Source: Saprospiraceae bacterium
GTDB taxonomy: Bacteria; Bacteroidota; Bacteroidia; Chitinophagales; Saprospiraceae
Reading direction: 5' to 3'
Length of the DNA: 64,000 nt
NCBI GenBank assembly: GCA_021298575.1
Contig: JAJTFM010000016.1
Location: forward strand, 1-64,000
Shown here in pieces: positions 1,833-61,039 of the stretch; position 1 is the stretch's first letter; each line of letters starts with the position of its first letter. A model generated the notes under the pieces. It saw nothing but the letters and a program-made list of their open reading frames with translations. It did not search any database and was not told the origin of the DNA. The position numbers and the translations under genes were made by a program.

Positions 1833-2552
1833 ATGAAAAAATTACTCTTTTCCTCCGCGTTTCTCCTCGCAGCGCTCTTCGCACAGGCTCAAAACGCCGA
1901 GGAAATTGTCGCCAAACACCTGAAAGCTATTGGCGCCGATAACTGGTCCAAGGTGAATTCCCTGAAGATGGATGCGAAAATCACTTCCGATGCCATGGCA
2001 GGCATGTCTATCGCCATGAGCTCCACGATCGTGCGCGACAAGGCCGCCCGTATGGAGGTATCTGTGATGGGTATGAACCAGGTCACCGCTATCAACGGCG
2101 AAATGGGCTGGACAACCAACCCGTTCATGGGCCAGACCGATCCGCAGCCACTCACACCCGATCAGGTAGCTTCCATGAAAGACATGCTTGATATTGACGG
2201 CACGCTGCCGGGCTACAAAGACAAGGGCTATACGCTCGAGTATGTAGGCAAAGAAGACGTGGACGGAACCGAAGCCTACAAAATCAAAATCGCAAAGGGC
2301 AAAAAGACGGAATACACGTTCATTGACCCGGAAACATTCTATGAAATCAAACAAATTACCGTAGAAGAAGTGGACGGTGAAAGTGTGGAGTCGGCCTCTG
2401 TTTTCTCCAACCACACCAAAACGGATCTCGGTTTTGTTTACCCCTACACCATGCAGCAGCAAAGCCCCATGGGCCCCGCAACTGTAACCATCACCAGCCT
2501 GCAAATCAACCCGCAAGTTGACAACAAAATCTTCGAAATGCCGAAGAAGTAA
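1833..2552 (+). CDS. outer membrane lipoprotein-sorting protein-like (LolA-fold) secreted protein
   Basis: Signal peptide MKKLLFSSAFLLAALFAQAQ; NAEEIVAKHLKAIGADNWSKVNSLKMDAKI pattern. Confidence 0.7.
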   Translation: MKKLLFSSAFLLAALFAQAQNAEEIVAKHLKAIGADNWSKVNSLKMDAKITSDAMAGMSIAMSSTIVRDKAARMEVSVMGMNQVTAINGEMGWTTNPFMGQTDPQPLTPDQVASMKDMLDIDGTLPGYKDKGYTLEYVGKEDVDGTEAYKIKIAKGKKTEYTFIDPETFYEIKQITVEEVDGESVESASVFSNHTKTDLGFVYPYTMQQQSPMGPATVTITSLQINPQVDNKIFEMPKK

Positions 2553-2567
2553 GCCTTTTTCTGTTAA

Positions 2568-2603
2568 AACGGGCGCCGGTACATGCCGGCGCCCGTTATT
2601 TTT
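2568..2603 (+). terminator. Rho-independent terminator
   Basis: AACGGGCGCCGG-tacatg-CCGGCGCCCGTT followed by ATTTTTT. Confidence 0.85.
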
Positions 2604-2625
2604 TCAGGCTAAATAAATCCAGACT

Positions 2626-5600
2626 ATGAAACACTTTCTTCTCTCTGTACTCCTTTCGTACCTGTCTCTGGCCACTTTCGCCCAGACAAAAGTATCCTCC
2701 TCTACCTACGGAGCCATCGAGGCGCGCAGCATCGGACCGGCCGTCATGGGCGGCCGTATCACGGCTATCGAAGGGGTGAACAAAACACCCAAAATTCTCT
2801 ATGTGGGCACTGCCGGCGGCGGTGTGTGGAAATCAACCACGGCCGGCTTCACTTTCGAACCGATCTTTGAAAAATACCCGCAGAGTGTCGGTGCTATAGC
2901 TATTGACCAGAACAAACCGGAAACGGTGTGGGTAGGTACCGGTGAGTCCAATATGCGCAACAGTGTATCGGTTGGTATGGGTATGTACAAATCCACCGAC
3001 GGCGGCAAAAACTGGAACCGCATCGGACTGGAAAACTCGGAACATATCTCCAAAATCGTTCTGAACCCCAACGATGGCAATGTGGCCTATGTAGCAGTTC
3101 CCGGCAAACTGTGGAGCGACAGTCCCGACCGCGGCTTGTACAAAACCACCGACGGCGGCAAAACATGGGAAAAAATTCTCTACACCGATGAAAAGACCGG
3201 TTGCGCCGATATTATCATGGACCCGCGCAATCCGGATGTGCTGCTCGCGTCTATGTGGCAGTTCCGGCGCACGCCCTACTCTTTTACGTCCGGTGGACCC
3301 GGCAGTGCGCTCTACAAGAGTACGGATGGCGGCAAAAACTGGCGAAAGATCACCAACGGTCTGCCCGAAGGCACTTTCGGCCGTATTGCGCTCGCGCTCG
3401 CTCCGGGAGCACCCGATAATATGCTCGCTATCGTCGAAAGCGAAAAAACAAGTCTCCTGATCTCCTCCGACGCCGGTGAATCGTGGAAATATCAGAGCGC
3501 CAACCCCAATGTAACGGCGCGTCCGTTCTATTTCAGCACACTGGTGGTTGACCCCAAAGATCCCAAACGGGTGTACCGCCCGGCTTTCTCGCTGTCTATC
3601 AGTACAGATGGCGGTTATTCGTTCAGCGAAGCCTCCAATGCAGGCGGATGGGTACACTCAGATCACCACGCACTGTGGATCAATCCCAATACCACCAATC
3701 ACCTTTACCTCGGCACCGATGGCGGTGTCTATATGAGCCTCGATCAGGGGGTTACATGGACGCATCTCAACACGCTCCCGGTTTCCCAGTTCTATCACGT
3801 TCAGGCGGATGAACAGTCGCCATATTATGTCTATGGCGGTCTGCAGGACAACGGATCCTGGAAGGGGCCATCTCAAAGCACGGGCGGCATAGAAAACAAA
3901 GACTGGGAAAGTGTGGGCGGCGGCGACGGATTCTGGGTACAGCCCGACGCGCTCGACCCGAATTTCGTCTTCAGCGAAAGCCAGGGCGGTGAAATTACCT
4001 GCACCAATATCAAAACCAACCAGTCGCAGTTCATACAGCCCCAGCCCCTGCAGGAAGGCGAGAAATACCGCTGGAACTGGAATACCCCCATCGTCAGGGG
4101 CATCAAAAACCCGGGTACCATCTACATGGGCGCCCAGTATCTGTTCAAAACAAGCGACCGCGGCCGCAGCTGGCAGCGTATATCGCCCGACCTGACCACC
4201 AACAATGCTGAAAAGCAGAAACAGGCTCAGAGCGGCGGGGTAACGGTGGACAATACCTCCGCTGAAAACCACTGCACGATTTTCAGTATCGGCCCCTCTC
4301 CGCTGGATGAAAATCTCATTTACGTGGGTACCGACGACGGAAATCTGCAGGTTACCCGCGATGGTGGCAAAAACTGGGAGCTCCTCTCGGGTAATATCTC
4401 CGGTATTCCTGCCGGCACCTGGGTAAGCCGCGTCACACCCGGCCGCTTCAACCGGAATGTGGTATACGCCACCTTCGACAACCACGCCTACGGTGATATG
4501 AAAACGTACGCCGCCAGATCGGAAGACGGTGGTAAAACCTGGACGGTTATCAGTAATGATGCGAACCTGCAAGGGTTTGCTCACGTAATCATAGAGGACC
4601 TGGTAAATCCGGACCTGCTCTTTCTGGGAACGGAAATGGGCCTGTACCTCAGCCACGATGCCGGCAAATCCTGGGTATTATATAAATCCAAAATGCCCGA
4701 ACAGGTGGCCGTCCGCGACCTCGTGATACAGCCGAAAACCAATGATCTCGTCGTCGCCACACACGGCCGCGGTATTTTTATCATTGATGACATTTCTCCA
4801 CTGCGACAGCTCTCCGCCGATTTGCTGCAAAAGGATATCGCCATGCTCCCCACGCGGCCAACGGCAGTCACAAGCGGCCACTACGGACAGGGATTCCCCA
4901 ACACCGACTCTTACGCGGGCCCCAATGCCAGCGAACAGGCCGTGATTCAGTACTACCTCAAGGATCGTATGAGTACCGGCGATGTGACTGTTGATATCCT
5001 CGACGCGTCAGGGAATAAACTGGTTTCTTTCCCTGGAACAAAAAGAAAGGGTATCAATGTCGTACGCTGGGACATGCGTACTGCTCCGCCCAAAATGGCG
5101 AAAGGTGTACTCGTTCAGGGTGAAATGGGTGTTTATGCAGGCTTCATGGGCCGTATGGCAACTCCCGGCAACTACAAGGTGCGCATCACCGCCGGAAAGA
5201 ATGTCGAAGAGGGAACCCTGACGCTGACACCCGATCCGCTGCAGCCAGATCTCGACTACGCTAAGAAGAGTGAAGCCGCCGACCGTATGTTCCGCATGGT
5301 GGAAGATCTCGGATTCCTGGTGGCCCAACTGGATAATCTGCGCGACAGTGTGAATGCACGCGCATCGCTGGTAAAGGACAAAAAGCTGAAAGCAAAACTG
5401 GAAGCGTACAGCGCATCGCTGGAGGAGCACCGCAAAACGCTCACCGAACATATCGAATCAAAAGGTATCACGGGCGAGCAGCGCCTGCGTGCGCGCATCG
5501 GCCGACTGTACGTCTATTCGGTGATGTCCGATGATCTGCCGACACAGTCGGTGATGGAAGGTGCCAATGTAAGAACAGAAGAACTCCGTCAGGCACGCGC

Positions 5601-56629: not shown

Positions 56630-58381
56630 GTGAAACACCTGCTCTCTTATCTCAAAAAATTCTTCTGGCGATACCGCTGGAGATTCCTGCTCGGAACTGT
56701 TTTCGTCGGACTGGCCAACGCTTTCCGCGTGTGGCAACCCAAGGTAATCGGACAGGCACTCGATACAGTCATAGAACGCGTCCGGTTCTACAAGGAGCAC
56801 GGCGGCATTGAAGCGCACCCCGAAGCCTTCTCGGAACTCGGCCGGCAGATTGCTCTCTTCGGAGCCGCCGTAATAGCTCTCGCCATCCTGATGGGACTCT
56901 TCATGTATTTCATGCGTCAGACGATCATTGTGATGAGCCGCCTAATCGAGTATGATATGAGAAAGGAGATTTTTGCTCACTACACCCGGCTCGATCTGGC
57001 TTTTTACAAGCGAAACAGCACCGGCGATATGATGTCGCGCGTCTCCGAGGATGTTTCCAAGGTGCGCATGTTCCTCGGACCTACCATACTGTACGGACTC
57101 GATCTGATTTTCCTGTTCATCCTCGCCATCTCTTCCATGGTCAGTGTGAGCCTGGAACTCACCCTGTGGTCGCTGCTCCCACTTCCATTCCTCAGCCTTT
57201 CCATCTACTGGGTCAGCTCGATTATCAACAAGCGCAGTGAAAAAATACAGCAGCAACTGGCCGTACTGACAAGCACAGCTCAGGAAGTTTACAGCGGCAT
57301 ACGCGTGGTGAAAAGTTATGTACAGGAAAAAGCCATGGGTCGCTGGTTCGCCGACCAGAGCGAAGAGTACCGCCGCCGCTCACTCGAGCTGATTCGGGTG
57401 GATGCTTTTTTCTTTCCGCTCATGTCGCTGCTCATCGGCGCCAGTATCATCATCACCGTATATGTTGGCGGCCTGTTGGTAATTGAAGGAAAACTGACTG
57501 CCGGGAATATTACGTCGTTCGTCATTTACATCAACATGCTGACCTGGCCGGTTACGGCTATCGGCTGGATTGCCTCCCTGACCCAGCAGGCGTCGGCCTC
57601 CCAGAAACGCATCAACGAGTTTCTGAAAACAGAGCCCGCCATACAGAACAGTAACTCTTCCGAAACGGCAGCACCCCTGCGCGGTAAAATTGAATTCAGA
57701 AATGTCTCCTTCACTTATCCGGATACGGGTATAAAAGCACTGGAAGGTATTTCGTTCACGCTCGAGCCCGGACAAAAAATGGCCATTATCGGCCGCACCG
57801 GCAGCGGAAAAACCACGCTGGCCGACCTGCTCGTGCGCATGTATGACGTGTCCGACGGACAGATTCTCATAGACGATCAGGAAATCGCTCGCCACGACCT
57901 GTACAACCTGCGCCGGCAAATCGGTTATGTCCCGCAGGATGTGTTCCTTTTTTCCGACACGGTTTTCGGAAATATCGCCTTCGGCCGCGAGGGCGTCACC
58001 AGAGAAGAAGCCGAGTTTTTCGCCAAAAGCGCCGCTGTCCACGACGATATCTCCGGACTTTCCGACGGATATGACACCATCGTGGGCGAAAGGGGCGTCA
58101 CGCTCTCCGGCGGACAAAAGCAGCGGGTCAGCATCGCCCGCGCCTTCGCCAAACACCCCAATATCATTCTCCTCGACGACTGCCTCTACATGCAAACAGC
58201 ACTGGCCAACAAAACAGCCATCATCATCACCCACCGGATCTATTCCATGCTTCAGTTCGATAAAATCATTGTCCTCGAAGACCACCGCATCGTCCAGTCC
58301 GGCACCCATGATGAACTGCTCGCGCAGGGCGGATACTACGCCGAGCTGTGGGAAAAGCAGCGGCTGATGGAGGAGGAATAG
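56630..58381 (+). CDS. ABC transporter, fused permease/ATPase (MsbA/MdlB-like) with probable internal deletion after Walker B
   Basis: ABC TM domain; Walker A IIGRTGSGKTTLADLL; LSGGQKQRVSIARA; Walker B IILLDDCL runs directly into YMQTALANKTAIIITHR. Confidence 0.9.
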   Translation: MKHLLSYLKKFFWRYRWRFLLGTVFVGLANAFRVWQPKVIGQALDTVIERVRFYKEHGGIEAHPEAFSELGRQIALFGAAVIALAILMGLFMYFMRQTIIVMSRLIEYDMRKEIFAHYTRLDLAFYKRNSTGDMMSRVSEDVSKVRMFLGPTILYGLDLIFLFILAISSMVSVSLELTLWSLLPLPFLSLSIYWVSSIINKRSEKIQQQLAVLTSTAQEVYSGIRVVKSYVQEKAMGRWFADQSEEYRRRSLELIRVDAFFFPLMSLLIGASIIITVYVGGLLVIEGKLTAGNITSFVIYINMLTWPVTAIGWIASLTQQASASQKRINEFLKTEPAIQNSNSSETAAPLRGKIEFRNVSFTYPDTGIKALEGISFTLEPGQKMAIIGRTGSGKTTLADLLVRMYDVSDGQILIDDQEIARHDLYNLRRQIGYVPQDVFLFSDTVFGNIAFGREGVTREEAEFFAKSAAVHDDISGLSDGYDTIVGERGVTLSGGQKQRVSIARAFAKHPNIILLDDCLYMQTALANKTAIIITHRIYSMLQFDKIIVLEDHRIVQSGTHDELLAQGGYYAELWEKQRLMEEE

Positions 58382-58426: not shown

Positions 58427-58650
58427 CAGCCCTGTAAGGGCGAAATACACTAACGGTGGGGTACAGCCCCTCGACACTAATGGGCCACTCGACACGAACG
58501 AAAGGCTACACCTACTCGAAATGCCACGCTCCAAACCCGAACCCTTCACACATTATTCGGGCGTAAACCCCGTAGTGTGATTCCGGTATTCGTTCTCCGC
58601 GTTCGAGGGGTTACACCCCCACTAATTTATTTCGCCCCTTCAGGGCTGGC
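58427..58650. repeat. long inverted repeat (arms about 50 bp, imperfect) in intergenic DNA
   Basis: CAGCCCTGTAAGGGCGAAATACACTAACGGTGGGGTACAGCCCCTCGAC (58427-58475) is largely the reverse complement of GTTCGAGGGGTTACACCCCCACTAATTTATTTCGCCCCTTCAGGGCTGGC (58601-58650). Confidence 0.75.
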
Positions 58651-59240: not shown

Positions 59241-59457
59241 GAGTCATTCCCTGACACCTCCCGAACCTACAATCATGGTAATCCTTTACCAGCAAATCAA
59301 GAGTCAGACAATAAAGACGCAACGGTAAAATGAAAAAACACCCGGAACGGCCGGAGTGGCTATCCCGCTCACCCTACTGGTACCGGGTGCTGTAAAAATT
59401 TGCCACCCGCCAAAAGGACGGGCAGTCGGGGTCATGCATCTGTTCAGCAGCAGCCAT

Positions 59458-59476
59458 CCGGCTTTACTTATGAGCT
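59458..59476 (+). repeat. TR-side arm of a 19-bp inverted repeat
   Basis: CCGGCTTTACTTATGAGCT; exact reverse complement at 60872-60890. Confidence 0.9.
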
Positions 59477-59606
59477 ACGGGACGAGAACCAGGCGGAAGC
59501 CAATGTTGTTGTTGCGGTTGTTCGGATTATTCCTGTTCCGATTCGCTACCCGGCAGTTCTCCGGGTTGTTGTTCCAACTGCCGCCGCGGAGAACACGGTT
59601 CGAGCC
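59475..59606 (-). repeat. DGR template repeat (TR)
   Basis: 132 bp aligned without gaps to 60908-61039; 17 of 18 differences at TR adenines (minus-strand sense); AAC/AAT-rich core encoding [24 protein letters not shown]. Confidence 0.95.
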
Positions 59607-60722
59607 CTCGATACACGCATCAGCGTACTTGGTGAATGCTGTCAATGGTGTCGCATGATTATGAAATTCTTCCTGACTCCAGAGACCCGTCTCGAGCCAC
59701 AAATGATACTTCTTTATTTTTTGCCGATACCTGCGGCGACTCCGCCAGGCCAGATGCACTGTATCAGGATACAAAACGTACCCCAGAAAAGGCAACCCGG
59801 CAATATTTTTGTTCAGACAAAATGGCTTCAGCTCCTGTTTCAGTTTTTCGGAAATGTAATCCTGCAACCGAAGCCCCGCCTGTAAAAGTACGCGTTTGTC
59901 ATTATGCCACAAAACCATATCGTCCATGTACCGGACATATGCCGGAACCCGGAGTGGTTCTCTGACATAATAATCGGCTGGTGACAAATAATGATTCGCC
60001 AGATACTGACTCGTCAGATTGCCAATCGGGACGCCACGCCCCGGCTCCACCTCGTAACTGTCAAGTATCCTGTCAAATAAACGAAGCAAGGTATAGTCTT
60101 TGAACATACGACCAAGCTGGCTGCGTACAACGCCATGGCTGATACTGTCAAAATATTTGCGCACATCCAGTTTCAGAAAATAATCATACCTGCGATTGAA
60201 CTGTCGAGCCCGGTCAAGGGCGGAATAGGTACCTTTACCGGGACGGCTCGCATAACTGTCGGATATCTGATGCCGCTCAAAATACGTGTGACATATATTC
60301 ATGACAGCATGATGTAGCACCCGCTGCGGAAACGGTGCCGCACATATCTGACGTTTCTTGGGGTCGTAAACCGTGAAATATTGATAATCTCCTGTTTCTG
60401 CGTCTCCAGTCAATATCTGATCCTGTAACAAACGAAGATTTGTGTGCAGATTACGGCCATACTCCAGAACCTTGTCCCCGAACAGCTTGCCCCGCTTTGC
60501 CTTGTACCAGGCCAGATAAAGATTGAATATATCCGCAATGGACTCAGTCAGATTGCCCGCTCGCTCCATATATCTGACGCTGAAGCACCAGTAAGCACCG
60601 TCAGGACTGCCAACAAAGTTTTCATTGATATTCAAGATCTTGTTACCCCGAAGAAATGTGTTCATTTCCTGAAGCGCACTGCCGTTGTCGCCAACAGATA
60701 TGGTGAAGAGTTTGATCTGCAT
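59475..60722 (-). CDS. DGR-type reverse transcriptase (RNA-directed DNA polymerase); 3' end is the TR
   Basis: [85 protein letters not shown] (DGR-type GxxxSQ); [10 protein letters not shown] (YxDD). Confidence 0.96.
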
Positions 60723-60764
60723 ACTGATTCATTTTTAAAGCTTGTACATCTTTGAAAATTTTCG

Positions 60765-60779
60765 ACCGGCTTCGCCGGT
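60765..60779. repeat. small hairpin upstream of the RT start
   Basis: ACCGGC-TTC-GCCGGT. Confidence 0.55.
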
Positions 60780-60801
60780 TTGAATCCCCCCATTACCGTT
60801 C

Positions 60802-60864
60802 GCGGCAGGAGAGAAACGCACAGGGGCTCCGTCCCTCCGCCCCTCGCTCGTTTCTCTCCACCGC
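60802..60864. repeat. large stem-loop between VR and RT
   Basis: GCGG-CA-GGAGAGAAACG ... CGTTTCTCTCC-A-CCGC (perfect 11-bp core 60808-60818/60849-60859) with inner GGGGC/GCCCC stem. Confidence 0.8.
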
Positions 60865-60871
60865 TCTCTTC

Positions 60872-60890
60872 AGCTCATAAGTAAAGCCGG
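60872..60890 (+). repeat. VR-side arm of a 19-bp inverted repeat
   Basis: AGCTCATAAGTAAAGCCGG; exact reverse complement of 59458-59476. Confidence 0.9.
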
Positions 60891-60907
60891 AAAGGGCAGC
60901 AGACTGA

Positions 60908-61039
60908 CTACGGGACGAGAACCAGGCGGATGCCAATGTCGTAGAGGCGGTTGTACGGATAAAACCCGTTCCGAAACGCTACCCGGCAGTCCCCCGGGTC
61001 GTCGGACCAACTGCCGCCGCGGAGAACACGGTTCGAGCC
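60908..61039 (-). repeat. DGR variable repeat (VR) at the 3' end of the target gene
   Basis: Ungapped alignment to the TR; encodes [42 protein letters not shown]. Confidence 0.95.

Follow-up and report, generated by a model that had tools for sequence, protein, structure and literature searches.

How does the transcript of a DGR template find the one gene that it is to diversify? Target finding and the start of integration form the least understood step of mutagenic retrohoming, and a Saprospiraceae locus offers a way into the question. The window analysed is a stretch of 64,000 nucleotides from a MAG contig of 105 kb. The target of its DGR is a gene whose product has an nSTAND1 NTPase at the N-terminus and, at the C-terminus, an FGE-sulfatase domain (C-type lectin fold; E 1.2e-56) that ends at the VR. 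The positions of the features are collected in Table 1.

Is the locus a DGR at all? An earlier note on this DNA had read it as a complete DGR with adenine-specific changes between TR and VR. Its coordinates, its gapless alignment and its count of differences proved exact on recount, and its decoding of the codon changes is right. The repeats differ at 18 positions with 0 gaps. TR adenines account for 17 of these (9 A>T, 6 A>G and 2 A>C), and the single non-adenine difference is a T>A at TR position 109. With 34 adenines among the 132 bases, an adenine share of 17 or more out of 18 differences would arise by chance with a probability of 3e-11 (hypergeometric). At the non-A sites VR equals TR in 97 of 98 cases, which suggests that the window DGR retrohomed not long ago, whether before or after the deletions described below. 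The final ~24 nt of the TR are A-poor and are kept unmutated in the VR. Clade-wide, transfer falls off over the last nucleotides of the TR: the rate of adenine mutation is 15% in the last 6 nt vs about 50% at other positions, and the adenine at TR position -2 is almost always unchanged in the VR. The earlier note had also proposed that VR variation among relatives should be confined to TR adenines while the TR stays constant, and this is what two assemblies of the same RT clade from different MAGs display (L089 and L090): RT and TR are identical, and the VRs differ at 21 positions, 21/21 of them at TR adenines. As far as assembled sequences can tell, this pair is a natural record of DGR activity. 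Trans VRs for the window TR were not found in its own genome, nor were opposite-strand VRs among the loci compared.

The reverse transcriptase gives the same answer. Its ORF carries IGNLTSQ and YMDD, in agreement with the motifs that the earlier note had named (GxxxSQ and YMDD) and with the [ILV]GxxxSQ / YxDD pattern. By sequence, the solved structure closest to this RT is that of the BPP-1 DGR RT (8ub7, E 6e-37), group II RTs following at 6e-14 or weaker. A phylogeny of 115 RTs, in which group II and retron RTs serve as outgroups, puts the window RT among the DGR RTs, which are split from the outgroups with full support; it is the sister of L047/L048 (support 95), and its closest relatives are from Saprospiraceae. 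Viral contigs yielded no relative. The adenine-specific DGR is thus borne out by the TR/VR pattern, the phylogeny and the nearest solved structure. That the TR lies near the RT also holds, but mere adjacency does not describe it: the TR itself forms, in frame, the 3' end of the RT ORF (59475-60722).

Table 1. Features of the window DGR, its surroundings and the second DGR of the same genome
Feature	Position	Strand	Basis or remark
ABC transporter	56630-58381	plus	in-frame 39-bp gap at 58186, 1.4 kb from the RT 3' deletion
Spacer downstream of TR	59355-59456	minus	conserved boxes in clade alignment
CTGAACAG box of spacer	59440-59447	minus	clade alignment
TR-side address arm, AGCTCATAAGTAAAGCCGGA, 20 nt	59457-59476	minus	inverted repeat and covariation
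TR, 132 bp	59475-59606	minus	within the RT ORF and in its frame; VR alignment
Fused ORF, 415 aa (MQIK module, RT, TR-encoded tail)	59475-60722	minus	ORF, domain search, alignment
Scar of ~60-bp deletion (loss of RT C-terminus and stop)	59616-59620	minus	alignment with relatives
RT core	59616-60575	minus	domain search, PDB sequence match, tree
Scar of ~283-bp deletion (HRDC loss, MQIK-RT junction)	60560-60570	minus	length counted against L047
MQIK module, residues 1-53	60564-60722	minus	elsewhere the N-terminus of a separate HRDC accessory protein
VR-side address arm, TCCGGCTTTACTTATGAGCT	60872-60891	minus	begins 16 nt past VR end; inverted repeat
Linker from VR to arm, 16 nt	60892-60907	minus	mostly 7-24 nt in relatives
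VR, final 132 bp of target gene	60908-61039	minus	TR alignment
Target gene, 1066 aa	60908-64000, continuing to contig position 64108	minus	domain search
Second DGR, same genome	G000:C164:1-3300 (L006)		VR 1376-1510, accessory 1695-2135, RT 2132-3151, TR 3133-3267

Of greater interest are the flanks of the two repeats, whose complementarity the earlier note overlooked. The last 2 bases of the TR and the next 18 nt form one arm of a perfect 20-bp inverted repeat, the other arm of which lies past the VR, 1.4 kb away. Could this be chance? Among the first 16 loci, the window included, 16/16 have such an arm pair (score 11-21), almost all of distinct sequence, and in 0 of 10,000 permutations of partners was the observed sum reached. 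The scored set was then 84 distinct VR-TR pairs of the window's RT clade, found by genome scan. Own pairs have a mean complementarity of 14.1 bp (score) vs 6.9 for mismatched pairs, and a score of at least 11 is reached by 71/84 own pairs vs 6% of mismatched pairs; the 5' flanks, taken as a control with the same measure, give a mean of 5.5 and a maximum of 8. The mismatched-pair control matters because the VR register was picked by best pairing, a freedom that the control was equally given. Pairing is thus nearly universal in the clade, and the sequence of the arms varies by locus.

How the arms vary is equally telling. In 30 distinct arms 90.5% of cells pair, and double compensatory changes occur at 17 of 19 positions, with a covariation score of 0.682; shuffling lowers it to 0.209, and sliding of the register to no more than 0.18. 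Mapped on the RT tree, changes number 196 on the TR side, 223 on the VR side and 255 for the pair, as compared with 359-371 for shuffled partners. Out of sample, arms of 13-19 (G.U counted as neutral) were present in 11 of 12 new pairs; the twelve come from a single other family, for the most part from one genus. In sequence terms, pairing between the TR flank and the VR flank in this clade is very well supported.

The pairing also follows ownership. At loci with two or three VRs, each VR has an arm that matches the single TR, including VRs 1-4 kb downstream of the TR. In genomes with several DGRs the score matrices are mostly diagonal, with 13-20 for own and mostly 5-11 for other combinations. 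Two genomes depart from this, each with a pair of related DGRs whose arms cross-match (L047/L051 and L048/L053, 16-17), and so does L055, where the own score is a weak 9. Arms are absent or weak at L098, L126 and L112, reach only 8 bp at L138/L139 and stand in another register at L086/L087/L211. Eleven pairs from more distant DGR RTs score 5-8. Background values (5-9) were obtained for BPP-1, for the DGR of a crAss-like phage and for named Avd-type DGRs from a Microcystis plasmid and two Vibrio phages. Nor was an address found at L026, L027, L028, L038 and L141, five loci that lie outside the clade and have a distant match to an HRDC-type accessory; HRDC alone, therefore, does not imply an address. 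Four of these loci (L026, L027, L028, L141) have in common a CTTTTTTACCTTTTTAC-like motif in their VR 3' flanks, shortly after the VR.

What are the arms? Inverted repeats that flank an accessory gene, an RT and a TR, as they do in the window and in many relatives, call to mind the terminal repeats of a mobile cassette. The gene orders exclude this reading, which we consider very improbable: at L035, L064, L073 and L118 the VR lies downstream of the TR, so that the arms do not bracket a cassette, second VRs retain an arm, and close relatives differ in arm sequence with compensating changes. Equally hard to credit is that the VR arm is the local hairpin or cruciform already known to follow the VR in other DGRs (Guo 2011, PMC3240598). 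The location downstream of the VR matches, but a test for folding gave no signal in the VR flanks of the clade (mean z +0.15, n=59), and the partner of the VR arm in the window is the TR flank 1.4 kb away.

Which strand does the TR transcript meet? When TR RNA is set against the VR sense strand, the non-Watson-Crick cells in the arms comprise 35 G.U, 2 A.C and 13 others. A stricter count on distinct arms gives 17 G.U vs 4 A.C (P 0.007), and one count per position and pair class gives 13 vs 4 (P 0.049). This excess of G.U over A.C makes the VR sense strand, or a transcript of it, the most likely partner. Pairing of the cDNA with the bottom strand is disfavoured, since it would turn the observed G.U cells into A.C. 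The TR transcript might, then, pair with the 3' UTR of the target mRNA, a tether that would bring the RT complex to its target or stabilise a shared transcript. The VR arm lies just past the target gene and is probably transcribed, and G.U wobbles suit RNA-RNA pairing no less than RNA-DNA pairing. Against such a tether is the finding that the arm is kept by every target, including distant genes downstream of the TR (L058, L070, L097, L111), so that a single fold in cis is insufficient. A tether would not need an exact boundary at the last base of the TR either, and on balance it is an unlikely explanation. The partner would rather be sense-strand DNA than the target mRNA, although the sequence fits both alike.

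That boundary is sharp. At TR base -1, where pairing sets in, it is 81% Watson-Crick; one base further into the TR, at -2, no more than background is left. Might the arm then serve as a primer? If the sense strand were nicked just past the VR arm (...GAGC), the TR-paired 3' end left behind would be extended into the TR and afterwards fold back onto the VR. The polarity is correct, and pairing stops exactly at -1, beside the first base to be copied. Direct priming of this kind is less likely, however, because the adenine at -2 would be copied first, and it is this adenine that is almost always unmutated in the VR; the low rate of mutation among adenines of the last 6 nt points the same way. Priming by the arm is thus distinctly improbable, more so than the mRNA tether. 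The cDNA of BPP-1 is self-primed from spacer RNA, and should priming be of this type here too, the arm would not have to take part in it. The A-poor end of the TR and the rarely changed adenine at -2, both IMH-like, favour docking.

The best explanation as a whole, which we hold with somewhat better than even confidence, is that the window DGR belongs to a clade of HRDC-type DGRs in which an address in the TR transcript docks next to its own VR, on the sense strand. The role of docking and the order of events would be as follows, judging from sequence patterns. The TR transcript would bear an address of ~19 nt directly 3' of the TR, and this address would base-pair with a sense-strand site 7-24 nt downstream of the VR. 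Pairing would dock the TR ribonucleoprotein at its own target and help to keep the site open, while the A-poor final ~24 nt of the TR might engage the opposite strand as an IMH-like start point. The mutagenised cDNA would then replace the VR upstream of that point. Whether DGRs of the clade are in this sense RNA-addressed in general is an evenly balanced matter. If so, an exchangeable core of ~10 nt between conserved GAGC and TCCGGC ends would tie each template to its own target or targets, and several DGRs could coexist without cross-talk and be retargeted by rewriting the address. Covarying, locus-specific flank pairing supplies target finding, across a large bacterial clade, with a rule that is direct and can be tested. 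With this rule the TR of a given VR can be predicted, and the pairing suggests that diversification could be targeted by means of a programmable handle.

Beyond the address itself, the TR is followed by a spacer in which several elements are conserved. The spacer has a mini-hairpin GCC-GGAY-GGC at the end of the arm, the CTGAACAG box, a stem and a GGTAG box, and the mini-hairpin, which overlaps the far end of the pairing, shows a few compensatory changes. An Rfam scan of the window, spacer included, gave 0 matches. The spacer is a candidate for an RNA that binds the RT or the accessory protein.

How does this compare with known systems? In group II introns the EBS-IBS interaction lets the RNA of a retroelement recognise its DNA target by pairing beside the insertion site. 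There is no ribozyme here and the pairing lies in a template flank rather than in an intron, so that the likeness is one of working only. BPP-1, of the Avd type, shares with the window a related RT core, adenine-specific TR/VR differences, a C-type lectin target and a spacer downstream of the TR, and the A-poor, rarely mutated TR end of the clade resembles its IMH zone. BPP-1 differs in having Avd instead of HRDC, a local 8-bp hairpin after the VR, and VR/TR flank complementarity at background. The features of its type, an Avd gene and a GC-rich hairpin with a 4-nt loop after the VR, are not seen at the window locus. Post-VR hairpins and HRDC accessory genes are themselves already on record for DGRs in PMC3240598 and PMC4891356, respectively. 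In the HRDC-type DGRs of Treponema denticola (TvpA; PMC4891356), an HRDC gene adjoins the RT and the targets are of the FGE/C-type lectin kind, as in the window's clade; there, however, the accessory gene lies between TR and RT, and the paper makes no mention of a flank inverted repeat. The DGR-diversified putative sensors of multicellular bacteria (PMC10907252) resemble the window in their conflict-system-type target and hypervariable lectin domain, and HRDC, a hairpin and a TR-VR flank repeat all go unmentioned in that article. A search, mostly by keyword, through the accessible parts of PMC3240598, PMC4891356, PMC3521204, PMC10907252, PMC12875486, PMC10053308, PMC8867640, PMC6642488 and PMC8144416 found no description of pairing between TR flank and VR flank. 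Address pairing is provisionally taken to be a new targeting feature of DGRs.

The nearest comparisons are the HRDC DGRs of Saprospiraceae, Chlorobiaceae and other Bacteroidota (L047, L048, L010, C164), which share with the window the RT clade, the type of target, the spacer boxes and the address pairing. These have a separate MQIK-HRDC gene and a separate RT stop, and the window has neither. In relatives the separate accessory gene adjoins the RT and encodes ~150 aa, an N-terminal 'MQIK' module followed by an HRDC domain; a match to it, at least partial, was obtained by tblastn in every clade locus whose upstream sequence was covered. AlphaFold2 predicts for the MQIK module a beta-alpha-beta-beta fold (block pLDDT 83-91). 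A Foldseek search with the accessory model matched its second half to the RecQ HRDC domain (1wud) and returned no significant PDB match for the MQIK module. At the window locus the HRDC domain is gone and the MQIK module is joined to the RT at the RT start codon; no accessory ORF of its own is present on the coding strand between VR and RT. The stop codon of the RT has been deleted as well, and the RT ORF consequently continues in frame through the TR. Of an accessory protein (Avd or HRDC), which is usual though not universal among DGRs, the window locus retains only the fused MQIK module. To call this DGR complete, as the earlier note did, is too strong, since the HRDC accessory domain is absent and the RT retains neither its C-terminus nor its stop. 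The only other RT ORFs of the clade that extend past the TR are those of L098 and L126, and these two are without a clear address pair.

Is the window copy sound? A third in-frame deletion affects the neighbouring ABC transporter, which is without a 13-aa D-loop segment (SAVDTNTESQILG in G001) that is present in 8/8 aligned relatives, among them the 93-95% identical G001. A transporter so altered is likely to be inactive, or else an artefact, to judge by its sequence. The fused, HRDC-less RT of the window might likewise be a decaying copy or an assembly artefact, address pairing being real in the clade, and this possibility is compatible with the docking explanation. The three in-frame deletions (39 bp, 60 bp and ~283 bp) cluster within 2.4 kb and are seen in one MAG only, and the RT branch is long (0.49). 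Set against these signs are an intact ORF with intact RT motifs, the identity of TR and VR at nearly all non-A sites noted above, an address arm that is perfect across 20 bp, and ~20 kb of synteny with G001 that is free of further deletions of at least 6 bp; from the last of these, the assembly is not generally deletion-prone. Because the cluster of three deletions is odd and confined to a single MAG, a decayed or artefactual copy is given appreciable weight, somewhat short of an even chance. Were the copy real, its fused RT would tell which half of the accessory protein is dispensable. Function in the window copy would depend on the fused MQIK module alone, or on the intact HRDC accessory protein of a second DGR.

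That second DGR belongs to this genome too (contig C164) and has its own TR, VR and RT and an intact MQIK-HRDC gene (PF00570, 2.3e-18), and its address differs from that of the window DGR. The FGE domain of a caspase-like protein on contig C205 is a homologue that resembles the TR of the second DGR. This gene (G000:C205:10911-11036, L007) was considered as a current VR and rejected, with 41 mismatches, 18 of them at A; its FGE domain is perhaps an old or orphan target.

Two further observations concern the surroundings of the window DGR. Upstream of the target gene is a 535-aa protein with no Pfam match (L008:4105-5712 (-), contig 64105-65712), which may partner the nSTAND-FGE sensor. In the interval that separates the DGR from the ABC transporter lies an imperfect inverted repeat of 37 nt (CAGCCCTGTAAGGGCGAAAT...; 58427-58463 / 58612-58648), which looks like an intergenic repeat element.
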